Assembly: GCA_017302015.1 (NCBI GenBank)
Contig: JAFLEE010000038.1
Span: 1 to 45,141 of the forward strand
DNA length: 45,141 nucleotides
Source of the DNA: Spirochaetota bacterium
GTDB lineage: Bacteria; Spirochaetota; UBA12135; COTS27; JAFLEE01
Direction of reading: 5' to 3'
Each line of letters starts with the position of its first letter. The stretch's first letter is position 1. The notes under the pieces were generated by a model. That model worked only from the letters and a program-made list of their open reading frames with translations. It had not been told where the DNA came from and searched no databases. Both the position numbers and the translations under genes were made by a program. This document shows, one piece after another, positions 23,367 to 29,984 of the stretch.

Positions 23367-23433
23367 CCAAACGGGATAGAAAAGGTCTTTAATGCAACAA
23401 TGGGCCGCTAAAAAGCCACCCGAGGAGCCCATC

Positions 23434-23676
23434 ATGCCCATAGGCGCGACCCCCGCTACCAAGCCGGTGACCATCAAACAGAAGGCCATCCTGAACTTCG
23501 GCCTGTTTTTCCTCTTCCTTTTCTTCTATCTAGGTGCGGCCTTGCTGCAGACCCCGGCCCTCAAGCACATCGCCGGCCTGACGACCCTGGGGATGCCCTT
23601 CGGCCTGCTCATGTCGCTCCTCATCTTCCCCGTTTCCTGGATCATCATCATCATCTGGTTCCTCAAGGCCAAGTGA
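23434..23676 (+). CDS. DUF485-type small membrane subunit of the symporter
   Basis: About 80 residues with two transmembrane helices (LNFGLFFLFLFFYLGAAL and PFGLLMSLLIFPVSWIIIIIWFL). Small proteins of this kind (DUF485/YjcH or DUF4212) are encoded directly before ActP-type solute:sodium symporters and are thought to be accessory subunits. It lies 7 bases before the symporter gene, so the two are surely co-expressed. The start at 23434 is chosen for GAGGAG 7 bases upstream; an upstream ATG at 23392 lacks one. Confidence 0.8.
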   Translation: MPIGATPATKPVTIKQKAILNFGLFFLFLFFYLGAALLQTPALKHIAGLTTLGMPFGLLMSLLIFPVSWIIIIIWFLKAK

Positions 23677-25397: not shown

Positions 25398-28300
25398 TCA
25401 CGCCCCCAGGAAATCCCGGGCGAGGCGTCGCTGCAGCCCTTCGATGGCCGAGAACGCGTGCTCGAGGAGGATGGCGTCTTCCGTTGACCCCACGGGCGCC
25501 GGGGGGGCGCCCCCATCGACCTCGCGCGCGCCCTCGAAACATTGGCTTTCCAACCTGAGGCGCGTCAGCGTCTCCCAGGCCTGCTTCATTTCGGCGTGCT
25601 CGGAGGCGGCGAAGCGACCGCCATTCTCGAGGCCCCGCAACCGATCCAAGGTATGCCTCTCGTCGATCCCCTCGCGGAGGGCGTAGAGGCGCACACCGTG
25701 GATCAGGGGCATGAGGCAGCGTTTGTAGTCGAGGCTCTCCGATTCGTCGCCCAGACGCTTCCCGAAAAGACGCACCGGGGCCTTCCATCCCAGGCCATTC
25801 TGGGCGAAACGCGGGTAAAACGCCGGAGTGGCCGATAGGCGCTCGTGGACGAAGGCCTGCAGCGCTCCCCCCAGGGCCGGATCGCCGAATGCGGTGCGGA
25901 AATCGAAGAAGAGGGCCGACTCCATGAGGTCTTTCGGCTGGCTTCGGGCGATCCAGGACGCCGCCGTCTCTTTCCACTCGCCCAGCGCCCGGCACCAGGG
26001 CGCGTGCATGGCATTGGTCGCGCCCTGGCACAGGGTGAGACCGCCCCGCGCCAAGCCATCGCAGACGAAGGCGGCGAGACGGAGGAAATACGGCCTCGCA
26101 TCGGGGGCGCCCGGCGGCAAGTCCGCGTAGATCAAGGCGTTATCCTGGTCCGCGGAGGGGGTCTGCTCCTTGCGGCCATGGCTTCCCAAGGCCAGGAAGG
26201 CGAACGGCGCAGGGGATGGGCCCATGGTGCGCGCCGCGAGGGCGAGCAGGCGCTCGACGGCGGCGTCGCTGGCGATGGCCATGAGATCGGAGACGGCGCC
26301 CAAGGGGAGATCCCTTTCCGCGGACCGTCGGGCCATGCTCCGGGCGTGGTGCAGGCCCCGGGAAACTTCGCCGGGATCTTCCGCTTCGAGAAGGAGCTCG
26401 CGAATTTGTATCGCCCCTTGGCGGAGGCGCCGGGCCATGGCCTCGTCCTCCGCCTGGATCTCGTGGAGGGTGCCGTCCACCCATTCCCCTTCCCCCGTCT
26501 TCTGGCCGAGGCGGGCGTGGAGGCGGAGGATCCGGGGGGGAGCATCCGAGCGGCGGGCCGTCAGGCGTTCTTCGGCCCAGCCCAGGCGGGTCAAATGGGA
26601 GTGGAAAGCCCTATAGGCCGAATCCGTATGGAATAAATCGGCCAAAGAAGCCGCAGCATCCGGCCGCCCCCCGTGCTCCATGAACCTGCTGGCCGCGAGG
26701 TTCTGCGCCACCAGGAGGCCCGGCGCGGCCAAACGGGCGCGGTAGAGGCCGAGCGGCGCTTCGTCGGCCATGCGGGCCAAACGCGCCAAGCGCTCCTCCT
26801 CTTCGACGCCGCCGCGGCCGCTGGAGAGGAGGCGCACGAGCACCACGAAACCGAGGTTCTCCCCGGGTCCCATGCGGCTGAACCCCAGCGCGCACAGCAC
26901 GGGCGGACCCCGCCGCGGCGCCAGGAGGGCCTCGCACCCCCGCGGGGCTTCCTCGCCCCGTTCCAGGGCCTCCAACGCCGCATGGGCCTCGCGGTTCACC
27001 GCCCGTTCGGGAAGGAGATCGCGGAAATGGATGAGGGGCAACTCGCTCGCCCGGTAGCCGAGCCAATCGAGGAGCGTGGGGTTGGCGTATTGGCAGCGCC
27101 CCGACCGCACATGCAGCGTGCCCTCCCGAGCGGCCTCCACCAGGGCGCGGAAACGCTCGTGGGATTCGCGCAGGCGTTCTTCGGCCCGCGACCGCTCGCG
27201 CTCCAAGCGGAAGCTCTGCCATAGAAGCCAGGCGAGGAAGCTCCCGACGAGGAGGGCGATGGCGAGGCTGAGGGCCAACAGGCCGCGTTCCAGGCGCGCG
27301 AGCTCCTCGCGCACGTCGTCGGTGTACATCCCGGTGCCGAGGATCCACCCCCAGGGCTCGAACCCGAGTACGTAGGACTCTTTCGCGGCGATGCGGCGCG
27401 GGTCGTCCTTCCACTGCCACACATAGCGGGCGTACCCCTCGCCCCGCTCGCGCACCAGATCCGCGAAGGCCACGAAGATGCGGTGGCCGCGCGCGTCTCG
27501 GAACTCGGAGAGGTCCCGACCATCCAGGTCGGGCCGCCACGGGTGCATGACCATGCGCGCCCGGAGGTCCTGGATCCAGAAATAATCCTTCCCTTCGCGG
27601 CCATAGCGCAGGGCCGCGATGCGCGCCTTGGCCTGTTCGCGGGCCTCGCGGGGGCCGAGGCGGCCTTCGCGCACCTCCCGCTCGCGGTCCTCGGCGATGC
27701 TGCGCGCCGAGCGCGTCAACTCGCGGATGAGTTCGCGCTTGCGCTCCAGGAGGATGTCCTCGAAGGCGGGCAGGAGCACCGCGAAGAGCCCCGCGGCGAA
27801 GAGGCCCAGGGCCAGGAGGGAAGGCAGCACGAATCGCAGGCCGAACCGCGTCCGGCGCGACCGGGGGGGCGCGACCGCCGCGGGCGCCGCCAACGTCGTA
27901 CGGTCCGGCGGAGGGGAGGCGAAGCAGCAACCCCGGATGAACTCCAGCCAACGCGGGTGGGGGATCTCGACCCCGGGTTCGACCGACTCCCCGCCATGCC
28001 AATCGGTGCCCCCGCTCATGAGGAGCCCGTGGGATTCGGCGAGGCGCCGCAGCATCTCGATCGCCTGGGGAGGATAGGGGCCGTAGAAAACCTCCAGGCC
28101 GTCCAACCCGAGACCCTTCAGGTCGCGGCACCATTCGTGGAGCGCGCTCTCTTCCTTCCCGAGCGCCAGGGGATGGGCGAGGAAGGCCTTCCCGCCCGCA
28201 TCATGGACGAGTCGGATCGCGCGGGCCGCGGCGAGGCCGCCGCCGAGGCCGCCGCCTTCCCACTCGGCGTACCGGGCGCCCTGCTGGGCGGATTTTTGGA

Positions 28301-28625
28301 GGGTGCCGCTCGCGGATCGACGCGTCTGGCGATGGGCGGCGAGCGCCCCGGCGAGGGCTTCATCCAGGGGGTTGAAGCCGTAACCGAGGAGGTGCACCTC
28401 GCGCCCCCCGTGGGAGGCGCTGATTTCCACCCCGGCGATGAAGCCGACCCCGTGGCGTTCCAGGCATTTTTGGAAGGCGGGAAGGCCTTCGATCTGGTCA
28501 TGGTCGGTGAGCGAGGCCGCGCCCGCGCCGGCGGCGATGACCCGTTCCGCCAACGCTTCGGGCGAGAGGGAACCGTCGCTCAAGTCGGAGTGGCAATGGA
28601 GTTCCACCCGGGTCGCGGGGTTCAT
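25398..28625 (-). CDS. PHP phosphoesterase-Cache sensor-PAS-DUF294 nucleotidyltransferase fusion
   Basis: 1075 residues, apparently a complete multidomain membrane signalling protein. (1) PHP domain ~5-240 with metal ligands H10, H12, D17, H42, E67, H78, H151, D208 and H210. (2) TM helix ~263-286. (3) Extracytoplasmic single-Cache domain ~300-437 (KDYFWIQDLRARMVMHPW, GFEPWGWILGTGMY). (4) TM helix ~448-470. (5) PAS ~486-600 and a second PAS-like stretch ~614-725. (6) GlnD-like DUF294 nucleotidyltransferase ~745-900 with GSHGRKEQTPSADQDNALIY (814-833). (7) DUF294 C-terminal helical domain ~905-1060. Cache binds small ligands such as carboxylates, so it may sense the symporter substrate and transfer or cleave nucleotides inside the cell. 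The PHP fusion is unfamiliar to me. Confidence 0.85.
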   Translation of the reverse strand: MNPATRVELHCHSDLSDGSLSPEALAERVIAAGAGAASLTDHDQIEGLPAFQKCLERHGVGFIAGVEISASHGGREVHLLGYGFNPLDEALAGALAAHRQTRRSASGTLQKSAQQGARYAEWEGGGLGGGLAAARAIRLVHDAGGKAFLAHPLALGKEESALHEWCRDLKGLGLDGLEVFYGPYPPQAIEMLRRLAESHGLLMSGGTDWHGGESVEPGVEIPHPRWLEFIRGCCFASPPPDRTTLAAPAAVAPPRSRRTRFGLRFVLPSLLALGLFAAGLFAVLLPAFEDILLERKRELIRELTRSARSIAEDREREVREGRLGPREAREQAKARIAALRYGREGKDYFWIQDLRARMVMHPWRPDLDGRDLSEFRDARGHRIFVAFADLVRERGEGYARYVWQWKDDPRRIAAKESYVLGFEPWGWILGTGMYTDDVREELARLERGLLALSLAIALLVGSFLAWLLWQSFRLERERSRAEERLRESHERFRALVEAAREGTLHVRSGRCQYANPTLLDWLGYRASELPLIHFRDLLPERAVNREAHAALEALERGEEAPRGCEALLAPRRGPPVLCALGFSRMGPGENLGFVVLVRLLSSGRGGVEEEERLARLARMADEAPLGLYRARLAAPGLLVAQNLAASRFMEHGGRPDAAASLADLFHTDSAYRAFHSHLTRLGWAEERLTARRSDAPPRILRLHARLGQKTGEGEWVDGTLHEIQAEDEAMARRLRQGAIQIRELLLEAEDPGEVSRGLHHARSMARRSAERDLPLGAVSDLMAIASDAAVERLLALAARTMGPSPAPFAFLALGSHGRKEQTPSADQDNALIYADLPPGAPDARPYFLRLAAFVCDGLARGGLTLCQGATNAMHAPWCRALGEWKETAASWIARSQPKDLMESALFFDFRTAFGDPALGGALQAFVHERLSATPAFYPRFAQNGLGWKAPVRLFGKRLGDESESLDYKRCLMPLIHGVRLYALREGIDERHTLDRLRGLENGGRFAASEHAEMKQAWETLTRLRLESQCFEGAREVDGGAPPAPVGSTEDAILLEHAFSAIEGLQRRLARDFLGA

Positions 28626-28697: not shown

Positions 28698-29984
28698 CTA
28701 GTGATGGAGGAGGCGGTATTGGAGGACATAGGCCCCCGCGCCGGCGAAATAGCCCAGGAGGGCCAAGAGCGACACGCGCTTCACGTACCAGAAGAAATGG
28801 ATCTTCTCGAGACCCATGGCGGCCACGCCCGCGGCCGACCCGATGACGAGGATGGAACCGCCGGTGCCCGCGCAATAGGCGAGGAACTCCCAGATGAAGT
28901 GGTCCGCCGGATAGGTGGACAGGGGATACATGCCCATGCTCGCCGCCACCAGGGGGATATTGTCGACCACGGCCGAAACGAGGCCGATGACCAGGACGAT
29001 GAGCGTCTGGTTGCCGATGGCGTTGTCCAGCCAGCGCGCCATGGCGGGGAGCTGCCCCGTGGCCGAGAGGGTGGCCACGGCGAGGAGGATGCCGATGAAG
29101 AAGGTGACGGAAGACATGTCGATGCGCCGCAGGGCCCGGCCGAGGGTCAGGTGGGCCTTGTCGTCTTCGTGCTTGTGCCGGTGCATGAGCTCGCTCGCCA
29201 ACCACAGGATGCCGAGGGCCAGGAGGATCCCGAGCCAGGGCGGCAAGTGGGTGACGGTCTTGAAGACGGGGACGAAGACGAGCGACCCGATGCCCAGGAA
29301 GAAGATGAACTTCTTCTCGAAGGGAGACGTCATGGGCCCCTTCGCCCCCTTCTCGGGCGCGGGGGGCACCACCTTGCCCTTCAGGAAAAAGGACGTCGCC
29401 AGGAGCGGAATCGCGAGGCTGACGAGCGAGGGGACGAGGAGCGATTTCATGATGGAGAGCGTGGTGATTTGCCCCCCGATCCACAGCATGGTGGTGGTCA
29501 CGTCTCCGATGGGCGACCAGGCCCCGCCCGCGTTGGCGGCGATCACGATGATGCCGGCGAAGAACAGGCGGTCTTCGTGGTTCTTCAGGAGTTTGCGCAC
29601 CAGGGCGATCATGACGATGGTCGTGGTGAGGTTGTCGAGCACCGCACTGAGCAGGAAGGTGACGACCCCGATGACCCAGAGCAACGACCGCAGGCGCTTG
29701 GCCTTGATGCGCCGGGTGATGACCTCGAAGCCGCCGTGGGCGTCGATGACCTCCACGATGGTCATCGCGCCGATGAGGAAGAAGATGATGGCGGCGGTCT
29801 CCTGGAGTTTTTCCCCCAGGAGTTCCCCGACCCCGTGGGGGCCCGGGGGCGGGGCGAAGGAGAAGAGAGTCCACATGAGGCCGGCGGCGATGAGCGCGGT
29901 GGCCGATTTATTGATCTTGAGGGGGTGCTCGAGGGCGATGGCCGCGTAGGCGAGGAGGAAGGTGGCGGCGATGAGGATCAGCAT
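28698..29984 (-). CDS. NhaD-type Na+/H+ antiporter
   Basis: A 428-residue ion-transporter-superfamily protein with about 12 helices. VLDNLTTTIVMIALVRKLL and NAGGAWSPIGDVTTTMLWIGGQ are characteristic NhaD motifs, as are VVDNIPLVAASMGMY and GTGGSILVIGSAAGVAAMG. It would expel Na+ in exchange for H+ at the inner membrane. It is encoded 72 bases upstream of the fusion gene on the same strand and close to the sodium symporter, so sodium cycling may link the three (inference). GGAG lies 9 bases before the ATG. Confidence 0.93.
   Translation of the reverse strand: MLILIAATFLLAYAAIALEHPLKINKSATALIAAGLMWTLFSFAPPPGPHGVGELLGEKLQETAAIIFFLIGAMTIVEVIDAHGGFEVITRRIKAKRLRSLLWVIGVVTFLLSAVLDNLTTTIVMIALVRKLLKNHEDRLFFAGIIVIAANAGGAWSPIGDVTTTMLWIGGQITTLSIMKSLLVPSLVSLAIPLLATSFFLKGKVVPPAPEKGAKGPMTSPFEKKFIFFLGIGSLVFVPVFKTVTHLPPWLGILLALGILWLASELMHRHKHEDDKAHLTLGRALRRIDMSSVTFFIGILLAVATLSATGQLPAMARWLDNAIGNQTLIVLVIGLVSAVVDNIPLVAASMGMYPLSTYPADHFIWEFLAYCAGTGGSILVIGSAAGVAAMGLEKIHFFWYVKRVSLLALLGYFAGAGAYVLQYRLLHH

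Follow-up and report, generated by a model that had tools for sequence, protein, structure and literature searches.

A PHP-Cache-PAS-DUF294 protein beside a sodium:solute symporter as a possible carboxylate-gated, GlnD-like enzyme

Background

Both DUF294 proteins and the symporter genes in their vicinity are already known. For those tied to acetate use, a nucleotidylylation has been predicted from the 1990s on (cited in PMC5715377). In Pseudomonas fluorescens, the cNMP-CBS-nucleotidyltransferase Pflu5625 is a member of the CrbS/R acetate regulon, and its deletion had a negligible effect on growth on acetate (PMC5715377). The helical DUF294_C domain has been classed with the C-terminal domain of GlnD/GlnE (PMC3710099). 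A demonstration of activity for any DUF294 protein was not found in the literature examined.

In RNase AM, the ligands of the PHP domain hold three Mn ions, and the enzyme degrades 5'-monophosphate RNA and FAD-capped RNA; PHP enzymes of this type act from the 5' end, and an insertion domain helps to bind the 5'-nucleotide in RNase AM and in CV1693 (PMC9410882). The Cache domain of PscD contacts propionate via Tyr90, Trp92, His103, Phe126, Tyr143, Trp145 and Lys156, and it prefers glycolate and acetate, followed by propionate and pyruvate (PMC5062169).

The protein described here unites domains of all these types on one chain. It is encoded in a contig of a Spirochaetota bacterium (JAFLEE010000038.1, assembly GCA_017302015.1), of which the whole analysed stretch of 45,141 nucleotides is called the window.

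Chain layout and reading frame

The gene is a single open reading frame that begins with ATG and is not interrupted by a stop, and its product has the domain order PHP - TM - sCache_2 - TM - PAS - PAS-like - DUF294 - DUF294_C (Table 1). An earlier note, made from the letters of the DNA, had read one frame with a PHP hydrolase, two TM helices enclosing a Cache domain, PAS-like domains and a GlnD-like nucleotidyltransferase, and the ORF, Pfam, AlphaFold and Foldseek all bear this reading out.

Table 1. Features of the locus, with window coordinates and the evidence for each.
Feature	Coordinates	Strand	Evidence and remarks
Small DUF485-like membrane protein, just upstream of symporter	23392..23676	+	Weak Pfam match; relatives beside symporters at related loci
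Sodium:solute symporter, ActP/MctC-like, 560 aa	23684..25366	+	Pfam, NCBIfam; convergent with PHP-DUF294 gene, 31 bp gap
PHP-Cache-PAS-PAS-DUF294-DUF294_C protein, 1075 aa	25398..28625	-	ORF, Pfam, AlphaFold (mean pLDDT 85)
PHP metallo-phosphoesterase domain, RNase AM / CV1693 type (predicted), aa 4-235, nine metal ligands	27921..28616	-	Pfam, profiles, phmmer, Foldseek
TM segment 1 (hydrophobic), aa 261-287, inside helix 258-319	27765..27845	-	Sequence, AlphaFold
sCache_2 sensor domain (predicted), aa 294-443, seven PscD carboxylate contacts	27297..27746	-	Pfam, alignment, Foldseek
TM segment 2 (hydrophobic), aa 446-472, inside helix 435-500	27210..27290	-	Sequence, AlphaFold
PAS domain, aa 490-597	26835..27158	-	Pfam
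Second PAS-like domain, aa ~608-722	26460..26804	-	Fold only (AlphaFold model, Foldseek)
DUF294 nucleotidyltransferase (putative), aa 762-897; G814-S815, R818, D826-x-D828; D908 just past domain	25935..26342	-	Pfam, alignment, Foldseek
DUF294_C helical substrate-binding domain, aa 935-1072	25410..25823	-	Pfam

The Pfam E-values are 2.6e-11 for PHP (8-72), 1.1e-30 for sCache_2, 7.8e-6 for PAS, 9.8e-34 for DUF294 and 5.2e-22 for DUF294_C. The second PAS-like domain is visible in the AlphaFold model alone and is thus a prediction of fold. This model was built with 47 sequences, and its pTM of 0.47 means that the mutual placement of the domains is not determined by it. HD and ACT domains, which are characteristic of GlnD, gave no Pfam match in the chain, and no RNA-binding domain was found among the Pfam matches along it. 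The codon-position GC is alike in all domains, with 0.84-0.91 at position 3, so that there is no sign of a junction within the gene. It is the only DUF294 gene of its genome.

The two catalytic heads and the sensor

The nine metal ligands that had been expected of an active PHP hydrolase are all present (H10, H12, D17, H42, E67, H78, H151, D208 and H210). Eight of them match His13, Asp20, His45, Glu72, His83, His198, Asp255 and His257 of RNase AM (PMC9410882), and the ninth, H12, is the second His of the HxH motif. All nine are kept in 60-61 of the 68 aligned rows, which is essentially every row with the domain; relative L115, which has no PHP, was excluded from the PHP profile. The N-terminal part alone is matched by the Pfam PHP model in the window protein, and the whole domain aligns with CV1693 (2YB1) and RNase AM (7UG9) by phmmer and family profile, with a Foldseek TM score of 0.83 to 7UG9 (by target length). 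Both NCBIfam equivalog models stay below their cut-offs (NF041577, 123.9 vs 400 bits; NF047791, 92.8 vs 375 bits). Judged by fold and by its nine ligands, the head appears to be of the RNase AM / CV1693 type and looks active. The insertion domain that helps to bind the 5'-nucleotide is much reduced in the fused family, in which the stretch 84-137 comprises 21-60 residues, and the substrate is therefore probably another than that of RNase AM.

The C-terminal half passes the cut-offs of both Pfam models (PF03445, 116.6 bits against 21; PF10335, 78.7 bits against 22.5). It contains the G-S ... D-x-D signature together with a further acidic residue, and the motif GSHGRKEQ...DQDNALIY, already pointed out in the earlier note, corresponds to residues 814-833. 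The residues G814, S815, R818, D826, Q827, D828 and D908 are kept in 67-68 of 68 rows. The best solved matches in Foldseek are domains of E. coli GlnE (1v4a, 3k7d) and DrrA with Rab8a (6yx5). With its key residues invariant, this head can be regarded as a putative nucleotidyltransferase that looks active.

The Cache domain superimposes with TM scores of 0.91-0.93 on PscD and Adeh_3718, and its best NCBIfam match is MctS. Y348, W350, H361, F384, Y401, W403 and K415 are the equivalents of the seven PscD contacts, and all seven are identical in 68/68 aligned rows. As the pocket agrees at every contact residue with that of a structurally solved sensor of acetate and propionate, the domain is predicted to sense C2/C3 carboxylates.

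Distribution of the fused family

When one genome per species was scanned, 80 loci came up; most match almost the entire query (residues ~1-1074), and 59 cover it on one frame. In 67 fetched genes from many phyla, PHP lies on the same frame as DUF294, which speaks against an assembly join between PHP and Cache and against homologues always encoding PHP as a separate, unlinked gene. The fusion is present in at least ten phyla, so that the combination, which the earlier note had taken to be unfamiliar, is in fact recurrent. By record title, the phyla include Armatimonadota, Chloroflexota, Lentisphaerota, Verrucomicrobiota, Acidobacteriota, Aminicenantes, Latescibacterota, Spirochaetota, Gemmatimonadota, Myxococcota and others, and since the records are mostly metagenome bins, individual labels may be wrong. 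An extra stretch precedes DUF294 in 57 of 68 aligned rows and is absent from the window protein; in the members scanned it is a CBS pair. On plasmids, tblastn gave no match over 80% of the query, and the matches listed cover the DUF294 half only.

No description of a PHP-Cache-PAS-DUF294 chain, or of alternating phosphodiesterase partners, was found in the open-licence literature, and an earlier notice elsewhere is possible. The same literature yielded nothing on PHP with Cache and nucleotidyltransferase, on the symporter/CBS/exonuclease combination or on DUF4212.

Symporter and other neighbours

That the gene lies beside an ActP symporter holds in part. A sodium:solute symporter (SSF) does adjoin it, and one is found close to the fused gene in 63/80 loci. 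The window symporter is, however, far under the NCBIfam cut-offs for ActP (343 vs 750 bits) and MctC (334 vs 670 bits). In the window, symporter and PHP-DUF294 gene stand tail-to-tail and hence do not share an operon; a common arrangement at related loci has the symporter immediately upstream of the fused gene on the same strand. Two types of symporter occur, one near that of the window, the other, more numerous one (52) having a hydrophilic insert of ~165 residues. For some members from Armatimonadota, the surrounding genes include no symporter. Three annotated plasmids represent the classical setting, two of them with the order DUF4212 - symporter - DUF294 and two with a 3'-5' exonuclease near DUF294.

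NhaD, through which a link to Na+ cycling had been suggested, adjoins only 1/80 relatives and was discarded as a component of the system. A tyrosine in the DUF485 tail was considered as candidate modified residue and likewise rejected, as the few tails compared have no tyrosine in common.

Partner enzymes of PHP-less DUF294 genes

DUF294 genes without PHP were gathered from the phylum of the window and that of relative L066. Among their immediate neighbours (n=117), Pfam matched RNase_T 21 times, SSF 17, acetyl-CoA synthetase 5, Metallophos 3 and SatP 2 times. Neither RNase_T nor Metallophos is among the 25 commonest neighbour families of PHP-bearing genes, for which SSF was counted in 21/82, a number that leaves out many similar symporters. 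In a profile search, a DEDDh 3'-5' exonuclease was found within 4 kb in 0/70 PHP-bearing loci, whereas 38/70 PHP-less genes had one. This contrast gives a Fisher p of 6.5e-15 if ancestry is ignored, and with correction for ancestry it comes down to 1-2 independent pairs on the tree and is not significant.

The PHP-less Cache proteins include five with an overlapping or abutting DEDDh gene and four with an overlapping gene for a calcineurin-like phosphoesterase. In a further one (L174), an AP_endonuc_2 barrel is fused in the N-terminal slot of PHP; the best PDB matches of this Endo IV/isomerase-type barrel are uncharacterised proteins. L175, which comes from the order to which the window belongs, lacks Cache and carries a DEDDh domain on one chain with CBS-DUF294. 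No partner was detected for 27/140 DUF294 genes, 4 of these 27 lying at contig ends. For Myxococcota, the DUF294 tree suggests that an exonuclease replaced PHP, but a longer alignment gives no support (AU p 0.73), and the case was dropped as proof. PHP alternates with other phosphodiesterase-type partners, the exclusivity resting on few independent evolutionary changes.

Proposed mechanism and alternatives

We tentatively favour, in what seems to us a nearly balanced case, the view that the protein is a membrane-bound, carboxylate-gated, GlnD-like bifunctional enzyme whose DUF294 head adds an NMP that the PHP head removes, and that carboxylate uptake is controlled in this way. The extracytoplasmic Cache domain would bind acetate, propionate, glycolate or pyruvate, and TM2, a long helix and the two PAS domains would carry the signal to the two cytoplasmic catalytic heads. 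The DUF294 head would then transfer NMP from NTP onto a target, and the PHP head would hydrolyze the resulting phosphodiester. PHP would thereby stand in place of the HD domain of GlnD, and Cache in place of its ACT domains. The most likely target would be a protein with a role in taking up or assimilating carboxylates; the symporter, the DUF485 protein that partners it and soluble regulators are candidates. We infer that the two heads make and break the same bond, and likewise the nucleotide, the target and the direction of the ligand effect.

Both catalytic sites are invariant, the Cache pocket is that of PscD, the symporter is recurrent and the partners alternate, and it is this combination that speaks for the idea of a writer and an eraser governing carboxylate uptake, as raised in the earlier note, of which the Na+ cycling part has to be given up. 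SSF symporters, acetyl-CoA synthetase and SatP-type acetate transporters also adjoin PHP-less DUF294 genes, and by analogy, the place of the cNMP-CBS-nucleotidyltransferase Pflu5625 in the CrbS/R acetate regulon would fit as well (PMC5715377). Because the three-part design recurs beside acetate-type transporters in many phyla, it probably switches their uptake on or off. Against this stand the partner folds, as RNase AM-type PHP and DEDDh are best known on RNA and nucleotides and not on modified proteins, the few independent partner changes, the partnerless genes, the DUF485 tails without a common tyrosine and the negligible effect of the Pflu5625 mutation.

Extended to the PHP-less genes, this proposal would describe a widespread and so far unrecognised class of switches that nucleotidylylate reversibly under the control of carboxylates. 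A DUF294 writer would be combined with one of several non-homologous erasers (fused PHP, DEDDh, calcineurin-like phosphoesterase or Endo IV/isomerase-type barrel), and in the course of evolution the eraser would change but sensor, writer and transporter would be retained. We consider such a class possible, but doubt it more than we believe it.

The partner folds are known mainly for acting on nucleotides, so a nucleotide messenger has to be considered, although it appears rather unlikely to us. The DUF294 head would make a small nucleotide or oligonucleotide signal that acts on the transporter or on transcription, and the PHP, DEDDh, metallophosphoesterase or Endo IV-like partner would degrade it. 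This would suit the proximity of the PHP head to RNase AM and 3',5'-nucleoside bisphosphate phosphatase, the exonuclease nature of DEDDh proteins, and the cNMP-binding and CBS domains of classical DUF294 proteins, both of which bind nucleotides. However, among solved structures it is protein adenylyltransferases that come closest to the DUF294 head, and no dedicated receptor gene recurs among the neighbours. Modification of a protein would be preferred here, as these nearest structures modify proteins and as the insertion with which RNase AM binds nucleotides is far smaller in this protein.

We think it unlikely that two independent enzymes merely share one sensor, with the PHP head acting on a substrate of its own, such as pAp-like nucleotides, RNA 5' ends or FAD caps, and not reversing the DUF294 reaction. 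The strong match in fold and sequence to RNase AM / CV1693, with a full metal site, and the degradation of 5'-monophosphate and FAD-capped RNA by RNase AM (PMC9410882) speak for it. The reduced insertion argues for a different substrate, though, and a free-standing role does not predict that PHP-less relatives so often have unrelated phosphodiesterase-type partners.

A control of RNA, in which the DUF294 head would extend 3' ends with nucleotides and the exonuclease or PHP partner would trim them, is very improbable: DEDDh enzymes (RNase_T family) do include 3' end trimmers, but no RNA-binding domain was found in the chain by Pfam, and its closest folds are protein modifiers. In addition, RNase AM-type PHP works from the 5' end (PMC9410882). 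A joining of PHP and Cache-DUF294 by chance, misassembly or frameshift can be dismissed in view of the same-frame fusions and the uniform codon statistics, even though the genes of three relatives (L091, L104, L114) are split over two frames.

If the preferred reading of a carboxylate-gated writer and eraser is true, uptake of short carboxylates in bacteria would be under a GlnD-like covalent switch outside nitrogen metabolism. In the fused family, C2/C3 carboxylates are the likely signal and PHP is the likely reversing enzyme, and the transporter context is given, which makes the nucleotidylylation predicted for DUF294 proteins directly testable with one purified protein.

Comparison with known systems

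The window protein resembles GlnD in that one chain combines a Pol-beta-type nucleotidyltransferase head and a helical C-terminal domain, which is related in the two, with a hydrolase head that depends on metal and with domains that sense small molecules. GlnD, however, has HD and ACT, whereas the window protein is membrane-bound and has PHP, an extracytoplasmic Cache and PAS, usually with CBS in the family. By analogy it may work like GlnD, and lacking HD and ACT it is not a member of the GlnD family. GlnE and DrrA are protein adenylyltransferases with the closest solved folds to the C-terminal half, but without Cache or PHP; GlnE undoes its own reaction via a second nucleotidyltransferase domain.

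The cNMP-CBS-DUF294 proteins beside ActP/SSS symporters, such as Pflu5625, have the same DUF294-DUF294_C core and the neighbourhood of symporter and DUF485/DUF4212, yet they are devoid of Cache and PHP and often adjoin a DEDDh 3'-5' exonuclease gene. RNase AM (YciV) and the 3',5'-nucleoside bisphosphate phosphatase CV1693 have the PHP fold and the trinuclear metal site in common with the window protein, but they are enzymes that stand alone, and their nucleotide-binding insertion domain has a much reduced counterpart in the window protein. Of the sCache_2 sensors, finally, PscD and Adeh_3718 have the Cache fold in common with the window protein, PscD has the seven ligand contacts as well, and MctS is the best NCBIfam match. 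They differ in their output, which is chemotaxis or a histidine kinase in these and a nucleotidyltransferase together with PHP in the window protein.

Transporter genes beside the fused genes

Most of the fused PHP-Cache-PAS-DUF294 genes are adjoined by sodium:solute symporter family (SSF) genes whose products carry a hydrophilic insert of about 165 residues; this mid-protein insert is seen in the symporter of locus L043 and in 51 similar ones. The NhaD-type antiporter near the window gene is seen again, among the related loci, only in L095. At L163, two Cache-DUF294 genes, both devoid of PHP, are adjacent to two different SSF symporters with small partners and to a SatP-type transporter gene.

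Variation of the fused architecture

The window genome (G000) encodes a second Cache domain, which lies within a 1404-residue frame and is 40% identical to that of the window protein. In L091, L104 and L114, the PHP and DUF294 parts are found on two overlapping frames, which may reflect a frameshift, an assembly error or a true split.

The PHP position is taken in the L115 and L172 proteins by an N-terminal domain of about 150 residues (EHADRTEKELGIRAEDIHKWIDGFFD...), for which no Pfam match was found. In L174, where a symporter gene is located immediately upstream, it is occupied by a xylose isomerase/Endo IV-type TIM barrel (AP_endonuc_2) that precedes Cache-PAS-CBS-DUF294. L175 comes from a genome that shares its order with the window genome and has a DEDDh exonuclease N-terminally fused to CBS-DUF294.

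Coordinates of features in the window and at related loci
Feature	Position	Strand	Remark
Second Cache domain	G000:C113:34343-34978 (L002)		
SSF symporter with insert	L043:3045-4934	+	
Double Cache-DUF294 locus	L163:602-11237		
Cache-DUF294 protein	L115:4497-7148	+	
Cache-DUF294 protein	L172:4727-7330	+	
NhaD-type antiporter	window 28698-29984	-	score above NhaD_1 cut-off, below TIGR00775 cut-off
AP_endonuc_2 barrel-Cache-PAS-CBS-DUF294 fusion	L174:5938-9291	-	
DEDDh exonuclease-CBS-DUF294 fusion	L175:31-2283	-
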